A stretch of DNA of 64,000 nucleotides from the NCBI RefSeq assembly GCF_017876755.1, contig NZ_JAGIOO010000001.1, positions 6,433,786 through 6,497,785 on the forward strand, given 5' to 3'. Under the pieces are notes generated by a model. It worked only from the letters and a program-made list of their open reading frames with translations. It did no database searches and was not told where the DNA came from. Positions 18,469 through 35,743 of this stretch are shown in pieces. Source of the DNA: Crossiella equi. GTDB taxonomy: Bacteria > Actinomycetota > Actinomycetes > Mycobacteriales > Pseudonocardiaceae. Position numbers and translations under genes: made by a program. How positions within the stretch are numbered: position 1 is the first letter of the stretch; every line of letters begins with the position of its first letter.

Positions 18469-19590
18469 ATGACAGGCGAGCACCGGGCCGACGACACACC
18501 CACCCCGCCCACGGGCTTCACCCCGCCCCCGCACACCCAGCCGCACACGGGCCTGCCCGGCGCGCCACCCCTGGCCGATCCGGCCAGCACCCCCGGGCCG
18601 CGCTCGGCCGACCTGCCCCTGCCACCACCCGTGGCCGTCCTGCCCGGCGCCGCCACCCCGCCGCCGCACGTCGTCCTGCCCGAGCCGCAGCCGGGCCCAC
18701 CCGCCGCCCTGCCGGGCACCCCGGCCCACCCGCCGACCCAGCCCACCGCCGACCAGGCCCTCTCCGGCCCGCCCGGCCCCGTACCCCCGGGCAGCCCCTC
18801 CTGGGCCGCCTACAGCGCCCCGATGCGCGGCGTGGACCACAACCTCGACCCCCACCTCCACCCCCGCTACCACGAAGCCCAGCAAGCCGCGGCCACCCGC
18901 CTCAACCTGCACTGGGGCATCTCCGCCTTCGTCCTGGGCTACCTGCTCTTCCACGTCGCGGGCCTGCTCATCGCCGCCCTGTCCGCGGGCCACTTCCGCG
19001 GCTTCGACGCCGACACCCCGATCCTCGGCCCGCTCCTGCTGCTCTCCTTCGCGCCCAACCTCTTCCTCGGCCTGGTCCCGGCCGTGGCCAGCTGGTGGAA
19101 GGGCGCGGGCCCGCGCCGCGACTTCGGCCTGGTCCCGACCCTGCGCGACATCAAGGTGGGCCTGGCCTGCGGCGCGGTCTCCATCGGCCTGGGCTTCGGC
19201 ATCAACCTGGTCGTGCTGCGCCTGCGCGGCGACGCCGAGTCCGCCGCGGGGCTGCCGCTCCACCAGGACAAGAGCATCTGGCTGTTCCTGTTCGCGCTCT
19301 TCCTCTTCCTCGGCGCCCCGCTCACCGAGGAGCTGCTCACCCGCGGCGCGCTGTGGGGCGCCCTGGAGCAGTACCGCGTGCCCCGCTACGCCATCCTCGC
19401 GCTCACCGCTCTGGTCTTCTCGCTCATGCACCAGGAACCCGACCGCACGGTCGCGCTGTTCGCCCAGGGCGCGGCCATGGGCTGGGCCAGGATGCTCACC
19501 GGACGGGTCGGCGCGAGCATCGTGGCGCACGCGGTGAACAACCTCCTGCCCGCATTGATCGTTTTCTTCGGCATCGCTGGCACCTCCTAG
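18469..19590 (+). CDS. CPBP-family intramembrane glutamic protease with proline-rich N-terminus
   Basis: 373 residues. Residues 1 to about 125 are proline-rich and carry repeated PP, TPPP and HTQPHT units. About eight hydrophobic helices follow. The catalytic EExxxR motif is E287-E288-L-L-T-R292, with the second motif FSLMHQEP and third HAVNNLLPA. CPBP proteins relate to Rce1 and cleave or bind within membranes. Some have lost protease activity, but here all three motifs are intact. It lies 15 bp after the amidohydrolase and is followed by a shorter paralogue. Confidence 0.88.
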   Translation: MTGEHRADDTPTPPTGFTPPPHTQPHTGLPGAPPLADPASTPGPRSADLPLPPPVAVLPGAATPPPHVVLPEPQPGPPAALPGTPAHPPTQPTADQALSGPPGPVPPGSPSWAAYSAPMRGVDHNLDPHLHPRYHEAQQAAATRLNLHWGISAFVLGYLLFHVAGLLIAALSAGHFRGFDADTPILGPLLLLSFAPNLFLGLVPAVASWWKGAGPRRDFGLVPTLRDIKVGLACGAVSIGLGFGINLVVLRLRGDAESAAGLPLHQDKSIWLFLFALFLFLGAPLTEELLTRGALWGALEQYRVPRYAILALTALVFSLMHQEPDRTVALFAQGAAMGWARMLTGRVGASIVAHAVNNLLPALIVFFGIAGTS

Positions 19591-29976: not shown

Positions 29977-31131
29977 ATGCCGACCCCGTCCGGGGAGCGC
30001 CGCCCGGCCACCGGCGCGGCGTCCGCGCGTGCTCTCCTGCCCGCCACGTTGGCCCGCCCGCTGGCGGAGTTCGAGCGCCACCTGACCCTGGAACGCGACG
30101 TCTCCCCACACACCACTCGCGCCTACCTGGGCGATGTGGTCTCCCTGCTGACCCACTTCACTGGAGAACTCGACAGCAGCGCCCCTGGGACTTCCGAGGC
30201 CGCCACAAGCGGTACCGAGGCCGCTGCTGAGGGTCCGGCTGTCGATGCCGCCAGGAAGGCCGCCAGCCCTGCGGACGCCGCCGCCGGTGCCGGGGACGCC
30301 GCCGCTGGTCCCGGAAACGCCGATGCCGGGAACGCCGAGAAGGCTCCCTCCGAGGGGCCGGACCTGTCCTCGCTCGACCTCGCCGAGCTGCGCTCGTGGC
30401 TGGCCGCCCAGCGCGCCGCGGGCGCCAGCCGCACCACGCTCGCCCGCCGCGCGGCGGCCGCGCGCACCTTCACCGGCTGGGCGGCCAAGGCGGGTTACCT
30501 GGACAACGACCCGGGGCCCCGGCTGGCCTCCGCCCGGCCGCACCGGCACCTGCCCTCGGTGCTCCGCGCCGAACAGGCGACGGCCGCGATGGAGGCCTCG
30601 AAGGCCGGGGCTGCGGAGGGTGATCCGGTAGCGCTGCGTGATCACGCGATCGTGGAACTCCTGTACGCCACTGGGGTTAGAGTCTCCGAACTCTGCGGGT
30701 TGGACCTGGGCGATATTGATCACGCACGGCGTGTCGCACTGGTTCTCGGCAAGGGTGACAAGCAGCGTTCGGTGCCCTACGGCGAACCAGCCGATCGGGC
30801 GATCCGTGCCTGGTTGGCACAAGGTCGACCGCAACTTGTCTGTGCCGCTTCACATGCGGCGTTGTTCCTCGGCGCACGCGGTGGCAGGCTCGATCCGAGA
30901 GTGGTGAGGAGGGTGGTGCACGACATGGTCGGTTCCGTGCCTGGTGCCGCCCCGATTGGTCCGCACGGGTTGCGGCATTCGGCCGCCACGCACCTCCTGG
31001 AAGGGGGAGCTGACCTCCGAAGCGTTCAGGAGCTGCTTGGTCACGCTACGCTCGCAACGACTCAGCTCTACACCCACGTCACCGTCGAACGGCTGAAGGC
31101 GATACATGACCGAACCCACCCCCGTTCCTGA
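29977..31131 (+). CDS. xerC: Tyrosine recombinase XerC with an Ala/Gly-rich insertion
   Basis: 384 residues from the ATG at 29977 behind GGGAGGAAC. XerC with XerD resolves chromosome dimers at dif. The core-binding domain is split: after [20 protein letters not shown], residues about 66-129 are Ala/Gly/Ser/Pro-rich (GDAAAG and GNADAGNAE units), and the helix [20 protein letters not shown] resumes. The catalytic domain is complete: Arg235 (TGVRVSEL), Lys in LGKGDKQR, H330-x-x-R333 (HGLRH), His356 (LGHATL) and Tyr365 (TQLYTH). The usual XerC length is about 300. Codons ending in A or T become frequent after 30640. whiG starts inside the last 26 bp. Confidence 0.93.
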
Positions 31132-32110
31132 CGATGCCGGGGGAGGTTTCCGCACAGCGACCGTGTCAACGGCGTCCTCCCCCCAGGCCCGCCCAACACA
31201 CCTCGGACGTACTCGTCGTCACGGCGTTGACGAAGGCACGGCACCCCGGCAGGGGCGCGGTGCCGGGAACCCCGGCGGACACGGCCACAAGTCCGCTCCG
31301 GCATCCGAGGAGCCCGCGCACGCCGTCGGCGAGCCGCGCAGCGCCGAGGACGTCGAAGCGGGCATCGTCGCGCTGTGGCGCGCGTACGGCCAGGCGAGGG
31401 AGCAGACGCTCCGCGACCGCCTGGTGCTGCACTACGCGCCACTGGTCAAGTACGTCGCGGGCCGCGTCGGCACCGGCCTGCCCTCCTACGTCGACGTCGC
31501 CGACCTCGTGCAGTCCGGCGTCTTCGGCCTGGTCGACGCGATCGAGAAGTTCGAGCCGGAACGCGGGCTGAAGTTCGAGACCTACGCGATGCAGCGCATC
31601 CGCGGCGCGATCCTGGACGACCTGCGCGCCCAGGACTGGGTCCCGCGCTCAGTCCGCAGCCGGGCCCGCGACGTCGAACGCGCCCTGGAACGTCTGGAAG
31701 CACGCCTGCAGCGCACGGCCACGGACCTGGAACTGGCCGACGAGCTGGGCGTGAGCAGCGACGAGCTGCGTGAACTGTTCGCCCAGCTCCAGCTCACCAG
31801 CGTGGTCGCCCTGGACGAACTGATCGCGGCAGGCCGCGGCACGGCCTCGCTGGCCGAGACCCTGCCGGACGACCGCGCCGAGGACCCGGTGGCGGCCCTG
31901 GTCGACCAGGACGGCCGCCGCCAGCTCGCGGACGCGATCGCCCAGCTCTCCGAACGCGACCGCGTCGTGGTCACCCTCTACTACTTCGAGAACCTGACCC
32001 TGGCCGAAATCGGCCGAGTCCTGGGCGTCACCGAATCCCGGGTCTGCCAGCTCCACACCCGGGCGGTCCTCCGCCTCCGCACGAAGATGGCCGAACAAGC
32101 CGAAGCCTGA
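31106..32110 (+). CDS. whiG: WhiG/FliA-type RNA polymerase sigma factor
   Basis: 334 residues. WhiG commits aerial hyphae to sporulation in Streptomyces and belongs to the FliA group. Region 2 is clear ([69 protein letters not shown]). Region 3 has [20 protein letters not shown]. Region 4 has [20 protein letters not shown], then [20 protein letters not shown]. The first 75 residues are low complexity, and a later start is possible. The ATG at 31106 overlaps xerC by 26 bp, with GAAGG 6 nt upstream, which supports coupling. No anti-sigma gene is next to it. Confidence 0.93.
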
Positions 32111-32318
32111 CCACCTCGCCCGGCAGCCACCCCAGGTGGCTCCAGGCACCGCCACCCGGCAAGGGACGAGCCGGGTGGCACGACGGACGCGAGCAGCCTG
32201 GCCCATTGGCGGGCGGCGTGCGGCGGTGGCACAACCCCGTGTCACCGGGAGCCCACAGCCGACACGGCGACGGCCAAGCCGGTGGCCCAGGCGAGGGGCC
32301 CGGGACAGGGCACCGGGT

Positions 32319-34562
32319 TCACCGCGGACCACCAGGCGCGGGCACCGGAGCTTGCCGACCGCGTGGCCACCGCGGCGAGGACGGCGCAGCCCCACCGGAG
32401 CCGCCGAGGGCAGGGCTGGGCAGACGCGACTCGGCTCGAACCGGTCGGACCAGCCGCCAGGGAACTGGCGTGATCCTCTCCCCGGGCTCTGGGCGCTGCC
32501 GCCCTGACAGCACCCAGAGCCGTGGAGGAGAGGACGGGTGCCCGCCGCGACGCGGGAGGCAGCGACCGGTCACCGCACCCGGCACCGCCGAGGAGCACCC
32601 GCAACAGCTCGTATGCGATACCTCCTGGTCTAGGGGACGTGGGGTGCCCGGCGGCGAAACCTCGGCGTGGAGGAGTTGAGGCCCCGCCGGACACCCTTCA
32701 ACGACACCAGTTGCCAGGCTGGCAAACGAGTCGCGAAGTAGTGCGAACCGCGACCAGAGACCCGTTGTCACGGGACGTAATCGCCCAGCCCATCGCGAAA
32801 CCCAACCCACAGACACCCGCTGACCACGTCGGACAAGCCCAAAGCACCGAGTCGGGCCACGCCGCCGCCCACCCCCGCCCACTGGAGCCCGGGATCGACG
32901 GGATTCCCACAAGAGCACGACTCGCGGCCGAATGCTGACCGGAGAGTTGCGAATAGGCCGCTCCCGCTTTTGCCTCCCGGGCACAGCAAACCGCTTTCGG
33001 CCATCTGTCCACGGCAATAGCCGGACCCGGGGCGGTGCGAACAGGCTCAGCGGATCGAGGTAGTCCTCCCCACGCCTCAACCCCCAGTGCAGACACGTCC
33101 CAGCGGCCGGTGTGCCAGCCGAAGCCAAAACGGATTGCGAGCCAGGAGCGGGCACCCGGGGAACCGGGGTGTGAGCCCAGCGCGGCAGCGGCTTCGCTGA
33201 AGGTGCCGACCTCGGTCTGTTCATGGCCGGAGCGAGCGGCCGCCGGTGCGTCGGAGCGTGGCTCCGGACTGGAGGTGGCTTGGCCGAAACCAGCGTGGGC
33301 TGTGGTGGCGGAGCGGGTGTCGCGAGTGGCGGTTGGGGCGTCGGAGTGCGGTCCCGGTCCGCCGGGGGCCATTCCCCGGGCGGCGGAGTTGGTGCGGGAT
33401 GCGGACCAGGACTGGGCGTCGGGTGCGCGGGTGGGCGAGTCCGACTTGGCGGAAGTGCGGCCGGTGTCGGTCGGGTGGCAGGAGCGGACCCCGGGTGCGA
33501 GTGCTCCGGGTCGAGCGGAGGACCGGGCGATGGCCGTGGCGTCGAGGGCGGTGCCGGGTGCGCGGGCGTCCAGCTCGCCAGGGAGTACGTGCGGCGGGCC
33601 GGAGGCCCAGTCGGTGTTGGGTTTGTCGCGGGTGATCGCACGGGACGTGCCGGGGTGTGGGCCCGGCCGATCAGGAGGGCGGCCGCAGGCAGCTCGGGTG
33701 AAGTCAGTGTCGGGAGTTGGGCAGGAGCGGGCGTCGCGTGCGATGACACCGGAGGGGCGGGAGGGACGGTCCAAGGCGGCAGTGGCCTGGCCGAAGTCGC
33801 AGGGACCGGTGCCCCATGGGGTGAAGCCTCAAGGACAGACGCCCGGACGACCGGTACTTCAGGGGGCGGGACTTCAAGGACCGGCCCCCTGAGGACTCGC
33901 GCCCCAGGGGGCGGGGCCGAATGCGGGGCCGGAGTGGATGTCCGGTCCCTTGGAAGCCGTGGCGGGGGTGGCGAAGCCGGTGCCGGGCGTGGAGCGGGCG
34001 TTGCGCGTGGTGGCCGTGCCGCCGGGGCGTGGGGCCGGTCCACCAGCAGCCGCGCTGGTGGCGGGCTCGCGCAGCCCTCGTGACCGGGTGTGAGCAGGCC
34101 CAGCGGTTCGCCCCTGGCCACCCGCAGTCCACGGCGGACCTGCGGGTCCACCGGTTCGTACGTCGTCCGCAGCCCTCCGGTGTGCAGGACCGACACCACA
34201 CCGCGCCCGGCCAGCGGACCGGCGAAGACAACCAGGCCGGGGGCCGCGGCGAGGACCGGCGTGCCCGAGGGGGCCGCCAGGTCCACGCCGCGGTGGCCCG
34301 GGCCGAAGCGGTGCTGCGGCCGCTGGAAGGGCCGCAGCACCGCGGGCCGGCCGGGGAGCGGCCAGCTCCACGCGCTGCCGGGGAACAGCGTCGGGGGAGC
34401 GGCGTCTCGGACCGCGGCCGGGGACGCCCCAGCCGCCGCGCAGCCGGACAGGATCGTCGCCAGGAGGGCCAGGACGACCGCGCGGACCACCGTGTGGCGG
34501 GCCAATGCGGTCGTTCCCGGGACGGTCGCTGCCGGGGGAGGGGAGAGCGGCGGATGGGGCAT
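32319..34562 (-). CDS. Lipoprotein-type M23 (LytM) peptidase split by a proline-rich insertion; stop codon position uncertain
   Basis: The family M23 gene beside rpsB (Rv2891 in M. tuberculosis) is normally under 200 residues. From the ATG at 34562 the product has a lipoprotein signal (VVRAVVLALLATILSGC, Cys41) and the first half of the LytM fold: SWPLPGRPAVLRPFQ, then HRGVD with zinc ligands His90 and Asp94, then GLRTTYEPV, ending GHEGC at 160-164. The second half, CLHWGLRRGEDYLDP, does not appear until 490-504. Between them lie about 325 in-frame Pro/Ala/Ser/Thr residues. After VRLLPW (513-518) codon use becomes irregular and no stop occurs until 32319, beyond a hairpin at 32485-32521. The last 229 codons may not be real coding sequence. 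His492 is the conserved third ligand, and the usual HxH has Cys at the first position, as in this subfamily. Confidence 0.6.
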   Translation of the reverse strand: MPHPPLSPPPAATVPGTTALARHTVVRAVVLALLATILSGCAAAGASPAAVRDAAPPTLFPGSAWSWPLPGRPAVLRPFQRPQHRFGPGHRGVDLAAPSGTPVLAAAPGLVVFAGPLAGRGVVSVLHTGGLRTTYEPVDPQVRRGLRVARGEPLGLLTPGHEGCASPPPARLLVDRPHAPAARPPRATPAPRPAPASPPPPRLPRDRTSTPAPHSAPPPGARVLRGPVLEVPPPEVPVVRASVLEASPHGAPVPATSARPLPPWTVPPAPPVSSHATPAPAQLPTLTSPELPAAALLIGRAHTPARPVRSPATNPTPTGPPARRTYSLASWTPAHPAPPSTPRPSPGPPLDPEHSHPGSAPATRPTPAALPPSRTRPPAHPTPSPGPHPAPTPPPGEWPPADRDRTPTPQPPLATPAPPPQPTLVSAKPPPVRSHAPTHRRPLAPAMNRPRSAPSAKPLPRWAHTPVPRVPAPGSQSVLASAGTPAAGTCLHWGLRRGEDYLDPLSLFAPPRVRLLPWTDGRKRFAVPGRQKRERPIRNSPVSIRPRVVLLWESRRSRAPVGGGGRRRGPTRCFGLVRRGQRVSVGWVSRWAGRLRPVTTGLWSRFALLRDSFASLATGVVEGCPAGPQLLHAEVSPPGTPRPLDQEVSHTSCCGCSSAVPGAVTGRCLPRRGGHPSSPPRLWVLSGRQRPEPGERITPVPWRLVRPVRAESRLPSPALGGSGGAAPSSPRWPRGRQAPVPAPGGPR
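32485..32521. terminator. Strong hairpin between whiG and the M23 gene
   Basis: GGCTCTGGGCGCTG (32485-32498) pairs with 32508-32521 with one mismatch around a 9-nt loop. CTCTCC/GGAGAG flanks (32476-32481 and 32524-32531) may lengthen it. It lies between convergent genes and should end both transcripts. This argues that the M23 coding region stops before it. From 32111 to about 33000 I see no other gene. Confidence 0.75.
33130..33800 (-). repeat. Degenerate 81-84-bp in-frame repeat array inside the M23 gene
   Basis: The word GGAGCG occurs (plus strand) at 33145, 33229, 33310, 33481 and 33724, each within a shared TGGNNGGAGCGG context. The intervals are 84, 81, 171 and 243 bp: all multiples of three, and one, one, two and three periods of about 81-85 bp. 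A second word, C(T/C)TGGCCGAA, recurs at 33279 and 33786, 507 bp apart (six periods). In the M23 frame these give a recurring x-P-A-P motif (TPAPAQLP, GSAPATRP, TPAPPPQP, PLAPAMNRP, VPAPGSQS). About eight diverged units fit the span. Confidence 0.6.
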
Positions 34563-34689
34563 GCCACGAGAGTCGGGGAAGGGGGAAGGGGAGGCCAGGA
34601 AGGGGGAGGGAGGCTGTGGACAACTCCGCGGATGTGGACAGCTCGGGATCTTGACTAGGGGCGATTCGGAGATGAGAGGGGTGGGGGCG

Positions 34690-34695
34690 TATGCT
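34690..34695 (+). promoter_or_regulatory. -10 element TATGCT of the rpsB promoter
   Basis: TATGCT lies in the gap between the M23 start (34562) and rpsB (34922). A matching -35 is not clear: TTCGGA at 34665 is 19 nt away. A start near 34702 would give a leader of about 220 nt, in which a 12-bp palindrome CTGGAGCTCCAG (34777-34788) is visible. Long structured rpsB leaders often mediate S2 autoregulation in other phyla. Nothing else is seen in this gap. Confidence 0.45.
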
Positions 34696-34921
34696 CTTGG
34701 CGCGGTCCGTCTGTGTGCGGACTGACTTCGCGTGTCAGCGCAGGTCTCACGATGTGGGACGCGTGGCCCGGTGGTCCTGGAGCTCCAGCACGAACAAGGG
34801 GAGCACTGGGTTCGGGCTGCGGGCCTGACACCAGGGCGAGGGGCCGACCGGTCCTCCGCGACAACCATCCCGCGCGCCGGGCCTACCCGCCGCGCCTGAG
34901 AACACGAGGTGTCATCCGGCT

Positions 34922-35743
34922 ATGGCCGTCGTCACCATGAGGCAGCTGCTCGACAGCGGCGTGCACTTCGGGCACCAGACTCGTCGCTGGAACCCGAAGA
35001 TGAAGCGCTACATCTTCACCGAGCGCAACGGCATCTACATCATCGACCTGCAGCAGACGCTGACCTACATCGACCGTGCCTACGAGTTCGTCAAGGAGAC
35101 GGTCGCCCACGGCGGCACGATCCTGTTCGTCGGCACCAAGAAGCAGGCGCAGGAGGCCATCGCCTCCCAGGCTCTGCGCGTCGGCATGCCCTTCGTCAAC
35201 CAGCGCTGGCTGGGCGGCATGCTCACCAACTTCTCCACCGTGCACAAGCGTCTTCAGCGCCTCAAGGAGCTCGAGGCGATGGAGCAGACCGGTGGCTTCC
35301 AGGGTCTCACCAAGAAGGAGATCCTGATGCTCACCCGCGAGAAGGACAAGCTGGAGAAGACCCTCGGCGGCATCCGCGACATGGCCAAGGTGCCGAGCGC
35401 GGTGTGGATCGTGGACACCAAGAAGGAGCACATCGCCGTCGGCGAGGCCCGCAAGCTGGGCATCCCGGTCGTGGCGATCCTGGACACGAACTGCGACCCC
35501 GACGAGGTCGACTTCCCGATCCCGGGCAACGACGACGCCATCCGGTCCGCCGCGCTGCTGACCAAGGTCGTCGCCGAGGCCGCGGCCGCCGGCCTCATGG
35601 CCCGCTCCGGCCAGGGCAAGGCCGCCGAGGGTGAGGACAAGCCCGCCGCGGCCGAGGAGCCCCTCGCCGAGTGGGAGCAGGAGCTGCTGGTCAACGCCTC
35701 CGCGGGTGCGCCCGCCGAGGGCGAAGCCGCCGCCCAGTCCTGA
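34922..35743 (+). CDS. rpsB: 30S ribosomal protein S2
   Basis: 273 residues. S2 binds the 30S platform with S1. Conserved blocks are [60 protein letters not shown] and [20 protein letters not shown]. The last 40 residues are an acidic Ala/Glu-rich tail common in actinobacteria. The partner tsf follows after a hairpin. Confidence 0.97.

Follow-up and report, generated by a model that had tools for sequence, protein, structure and literature searches.

Peptidases of the M23/LytM type (PF01551) hold zinc through an HxxxD motif and the second His of an HxH motif. Variable loops, L1-L4, shape the groove of the M23 domain, and none as long as the one reported here is described in the accessible part of PMC9662197, which also describes the role of a catalytic His found ~30 residues before HxH. 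LytM domains without a full catalytic set occur in the envelope proteins EnvC, NlpD, DipM and ActS. A further group of M23 proteins is found in actinobacteria, where the gene is adjacent to rpsB and the protein has a CLHWG motif and a pair of Cys separated by a loop of 2-9 residues. Rv2891 of M. tuberculosis, which we take to be a neighbour of rpsB, is probably a member of this family. In the part of PMC8594824 that was available, Rv2891 is listed simply as a gene with an M23 domain and unknown function. Among the matches listed in our literature search, there was no study devoted to this actinobacterial gene and no paper on a LytM loop of the kind described below.

The gene analysed here is located in a stretch of 64,000 nucleotides, referred to as the window, from the genome of Crossiella equi, which is assembled as one contig of 9.44 Mb. 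It has the position, the CLHWG motif and the Cys pair of the rpsB-adjacent family, but the loop between the two Cys is 325 residues long. The observation is real, with no evident artefact. The loop is most likely translated and disordered, which would make this an extreme version of a known domain, and enlarged loops are found elsewhere in the family. The features of the locus are listed in Table 1.

Table 1. Split M23/LytM gene and its neighbours (positions are those of the window)
Feature	Position	Strand	Remarks
M23/LytM ORF	34868..32319	minus	849 codons counted from first ATG
N-terminal part of M23/LytM lipoprotein	34071..34562	minus	start MPHPPL, ends GHEGC (C164)
Pro/Ala/Ser/Thr-rich in-frame stretch (the insert)	33096..34070	minus	325 codons, 0 stops, 0 Cys
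C-terminal part of M23 domain, CLHWGLRRGEDYLDPLSLFAPPRVRLLPW	33003..33095	minus	C490, zinc ligand H492
Run-on tail, stop-free to 32319	32319..33002	minus	coding periodicity not significant
rpsB (ribosomal protein S2), divergent neighbour	34922..35743	plus	recognised from own sequence
Presumed whiG-like sigma factor, neighbour on the opposite side	31106..32110	plus	

An earlier note on this DNA had reported a LytM domain that breaks off with GHEGC, ending at 34071, and resumes in frame with CLHWGLRRGEDYLDP at 33095. These coordinates were confirmed, and the numbering it gave for H90, D94 and H492 is correct. The 975 bp (325 codons, 34070..33096) between the halves are indeed stop-free in the M23 frame, and a spacing of a few residues is, as had been claimed, usual in the family, with three congeners (L007-L009) reading GHPGC-PAPA/PTPA-CLHWG. 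Two features are missing from that account, namely that the codon usage of the insert is unlike that of the genome's genes and that the second half runs on into 229 stop-free codons (33002..32319).

The likely start of the gene is the ATG at 34562 (MPHPPL), and congener starts are MPHS, MPHH or MPHP. The 520-residue product has only three Cys, which are C41, in a lipobox (LSGC) in the N-terminal part, and C164 and C490, which flank the insert. Zinc ligands H90 and D94 are in the first half and H492 is in the second. The first half alone gives a Pfam M23 (PF01551) match of 52.4 bits (cut-off 28.7), and its GC content at codon positions 1/2/3 is.81/.65/.89. The second half is matched (E 9.2e-10) by A1, a profile made from 26 intact domains, the rows of which were chosen by a motif containing the second loop Cys. 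All 24 residues that are invariant in A1 are kept across the two halves (alignment read by eye), and the H(x)nD motif is invariant in 26/26 rows. The rpsB start at 34922 adjoins the split gene in divergent orientation, and of 85 loci with a CLHWG-type domain, 69 have an rpsB start in the stretch covered (duplicates included).

The description of the domain as a peptidase in the earlier note is probably not right. Like M23/LytM peptidases, the host protein matches the profile and has HxxxD and the second HxH His (H492), with its Pro-rich stretch just before HxH. However, apart from the 325-residue loop, it differs in having Cys at the first His position of HxH (CLH) and YEP in place of the His ~30 residues before it (aligned to YAH of 4rny). 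His is present at both of these positions in seven further M23 domains encoded at the same loci. As both catalytic His are missing in the family, its domain is probably no active peptidase, and the family probably represents a LytM pseudo-enzyme in which the zinc ligands were kept and the catalytic His lost. The host domain resembles those of EnvC, NlpD, DipM and ActS in being a LytM domain of an envelope protein without the full catalytic set, and in giving weak profile matches to them. However, it keeps the zinc ligands and falls far below the curated NCBIfam cut-offs (score/cut-off for the first half only: ActS 27.6/375, DipM 25.4/900 and 24.6/740, NlpD 24/311 bits). The likeness to EnvC or DipM is one of principle and does not extend to membership by curated scores. 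Two fusions hint that the degenerate M23 domain may be a partner of hydrolases. At L032:1220-2260 (G039) it is fused to NlpC/P60 (Pfam 68.2 bits), though rpsB was not seen beside this gene in the stretch covered, and at L173:1045-2256 (G609) the ORF goes on after it to encode a second M23 domain, which carries HxxxD, YAHL and HLHF.

Across 82 distinct related domains, the loop Cys occur as a pair in 80 and are both missing in two, and no domain has a single one of them. This count did not depend on a motif, and was made from 83 rows by leaving out L013 (wrong site), which has both Cys. The two domains in which both are absent together, L156 (G546) and L174 (G689), belong to divergent family members. 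That the loop Cys are kept or lost together suggests a bond between them, and C164 and C490 are predicted to form, probably, a disulfide that closes the loop at its base.

Profile A1 found the gene in 378 of 390 genomes of the family, in 244 of 248 genomes drawn from the order and in 257 of 295 drawn from the class, where the order and class draws overlap with earlier genome sets and include repeated genomes. Loops were inspected chiefly in genomes with a low best score (26 family, 6 order and 13 class genomes). The family follow-up took in four of the 12 genomes without a match, and the class follow-up took in two such genomes. This survey gives too low a count of insertions of a few residues. 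Among the listed matches of the low-scoring genomes, the only ones divided by a long loop at this site were those of the host (G000) and of G020, a member of another genus of the same family. Of 75 distinct domains, in a set that includes the host and was collected with a search motif containing the second Cys, 73 have an inter-Cys loop of 2-9 residues. In 72 of these the length was determined by script and in L169 by eye; the script returned 27 for L169 owing to an extra upstream Cys, and the loop reads as 3. The exceptions are G020, with 56 residues, and the host, with 325 residues.

The genus is represented by five genomes. In the comparison with relatives, which the earlier note had proposed, three congeners (G001-G003) have the gene intact, with a 4-residue loop and no insert, and G020 has an enlarged loop at the same site. 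In the remaining congener, G004, a contig begins ~62 codons into the gene; it was rejected as a case of gene loss, as the gene is cut by the contig end and whiG was also not found in the assembly. The earlier note cited no described example beside rpsB, but the case has precedents in G020 and G133, which carry smaller loop insertions in the same gene. Both are in-frame Pro-rich enlargements like that of the host, but they differ from it in size and one of them in site, with 56 residues in the same loop in G020, and 62 residues in the next loop, between CLHWG and DP, where 8 are usual, in G133 (L118). The G020 loop is periodic and its GC3 is.79 vs.94 in the N part of its own gene, which are the same two traits seen in the host insert, and a stop is found 5 residues after its domain. 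The G133 loop is without periodicity, and this was counted against a general rule. G133 additionally has a Pro-rich tail of 69 residues.

Whether the insert reads as coding was examined in several ways. That it is open is weak evidence, because 323 of 2000 dinucleotide shuffles (16 %), and 14.2 % in a separate set of shuffles, are also stop-free, and stop-free length was rejected as evidence for coding. The insert contains no in-frame Cys, and each of 500 shuffles gives at least one. However, with the base composition of each codon position taken into account, the chance of no stop is ~12 % and that of no Cys ~15 % (our own arithmetic), so neither absence is surprising. The three-base periodicity of the insert (chi2 83.5) exceeds the maximum of 23.5 reached in 1000 dinucleotide shuffles, and the frequency of C at codon positions 1/2/3 is.50/.62/.29. 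When 75-bp windows were scored leaving each out in turn, the M23 phase was preferred in 13/13, and 300 shuffles reached no more than 10. The same procedure gave coherent phase for rpsB (10/10), the whiG-like gene (11/13) and the N part of the M23 gene (6/6). Phase was incoherent in the tails of three congeners, which are as C-rich as the insert or richer (4/7, 3/6 and 2/16 windows in phase), and in the tail of the host gene, which is not C-rich (5/9). Read in frame, the insert encodes 101 Pro (31 %), and no more than 78 were obtained in 500 shuffles. Of all six frames, only that of M23 is stop-free over the whole insert.

Codon usage was rejected as proof of coding, as the GC3 of the insert (0.68 vs 0.89 in the first half) and its synonymous codon score in the true frame (-0.44 bits per codon) speak against it. 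GC3 varies from 0.63 to 0.97 across eight listed Pro-rich 60-codon windows, some of them in frames that are perhaps not genes. Pro-rich coding DNA with a GC3 of 0.94 is present in the same window, at the N-terminus of a membrane protein (ORF 18469-18873) that we presume to be CAAX-protease-like. The GC3 of the C-terminal half of the M23 domain was considered as a sign of decay and rejected, as this half ranks 14/71 from the bottom and is no outlier. The combination in the insert of shaped first and second codon positions and a near-intergenic third position would point to selection at the amino acid level without codon adaptation. With neutral decay, all three positions would be expected to be blurred equally. 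Another possible builder of the rhythm is growth of short runs of Pro codons by in-phase slippage.

The origin of the insert was also sought. PAAGT (33110-33096) would be the remnant of the original loop, and the inserted part proper is then probably 320 codons. Apart from short weak matches, nothing related to the stretch occurs elsewhere in the host genome or in the genus, and no related DNA was found in the plasmids or phages searched. The insert matches no Rfam family, the one sub-threshold match in 32000-35000 being outside it, and contains no Pfam domain match. An intron, an intein or a mobile element was rejected as there was no known RNA family, no other copy and no Pfam match. Only two tandem arrays are present, each of two copies, with units of 9 and 21 bp. 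The best self-match of the insert was equalled in 8 of 200 shuffles and the sum of the ten best in 0 of 200. However, nothing was concluded from this self-similarity because the shuffles remove the period-3 rhythm.

On balance, we favour the reading that the product is a secreted lipoprotein whose LytM domain is catalytically degenerate, and that the 325 codons would be translated as a disordered loop within that domain. The earlier note had offered a flexible linker or an extruded loop, and the extruded loop fits best with the in-phase rhythm, the conserved residues in both halves and the site between conserved Cys, where G020 also carries a Pro-rich loop. Since the loop would leave the fold at C164 and return at C490, the usual fold would still form from the first half and the last strand (CLHWG..LLPW). 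A disulfide between these residues, formed outside the membrane, would staple the base of the loop, leaving it to hang out as a long Pro-rich arm. The protein may act alongside peptidoglycan hydrolases as a LytM partner without catalysis of its own, and its arm could reach through the wall. More tentatively, and as a possibility that we hold with limited confidence, the inter-Cys loop may be a natural growth site at which separate lineages grew in-frame Pro-rich arms (325 residues here), stapled by a disulfide that lies in the core of the fold and between the zinc ligands; a single domain would then both dock on the hydrolase machinery and reach through the wall.

The leading alternative, which we regard as rather unlikely, is that the insert recently inactivated the gene, C-rich DNA that is stop-free by chance having entered the loop, and that the two halves are leftovers whose decay has yet to set in. 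The low GC3 and negative codon score of the insert and the 14-16 % of stop-free shuffles agree with this, as does the tail, which looks non-coding, its periodicity being matched by 60 of 1000 shuffles. Most relatives end shortly after the domain (at most 10 residues in 52 of 66 loci with a stop in reach, duplicates included). However, stop-free tails of at least 180 codons after the M23 domain are also found in three congeners (L007, L008, L009), and this suggests loose constraint in the genus. The gene is also damaged, as sequenced, in four relatives, L124 (G308), L125 (G276), L157 (G509) and L158 (G577), where parts of the domain are in different frames. These genomes are rated 99-100 % complete. 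With such damage in relatives, the gene can be lost and the constraint is not absolute. Recent inactivation does not readily account for a rhythm that holds precisely the M23 phase along all 975 bp, for 24 invariant residues intact in both halves, or for an insert placed between two conserved Cys, with an insertion of the same kind in the same place in G020.

The remaining explanations carry much less weight. The halves might be made or kept separate, as a split protein or by proteolysis of the loop after export, and assemble via the Cys. An exposed Pro-rich arm would be easy to cleave, and the halves would stay joined after a cut as C164 and C490 flank the loop, but the insert contains no known RNA family such as an intron and no protein-domain match, and the G020 loop is simply in frame, which makes separate halves very improbable. 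Only slightly less probable again is an assembly or sequencing artefact, a possibility that the earlier note had raised. The region may be hard to assemble, as the G004 contig breaks in the same gene. Against an artefact, the host genome is a single contig in which the stretch has no second copy, its length is an exact multiple of three and its coding rhythm is in phase. That the rhythm stems from the antisense Gly-rich ORF at 33223..34083, which is open for 286 codons, shares the wobble position and mirrors the rhythm, or from another inserted coding fragment, is barely credible, as this ORF has no Pfam match, unadapted GC3 and several Cys, does not span the insert, and the M23 frame alone is stop-free throughout.

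If the favoured reading of a translated loop is correct and the protein is made in one piece, a compact metallopeptidase fold can accommodate, between its zinc ligands, an insert over twice as long as itself. The Cys pair already present in the family would hold the insertion, offering long loops a natural docking site that can be tested, and a wall-spanning role would be indicated for a widespread actinobacterial gene.

Further irregularities were noted in and around the gene in relatives. L172 (G660) ends inside the M23 domain. The loop after CLHWG in L168 (G706) is a tandem array of ~four copies of a 6-codon unit, GLLSDR, and looks like an in-frame slippage expansion. Short tandem repeats are found downstream of M23 in L009 and L008 (APGSGLR-type reading), L008 also having a run of N before whiG, and the spacer between M23 and whiG is repeat-prone in both of these genomes.
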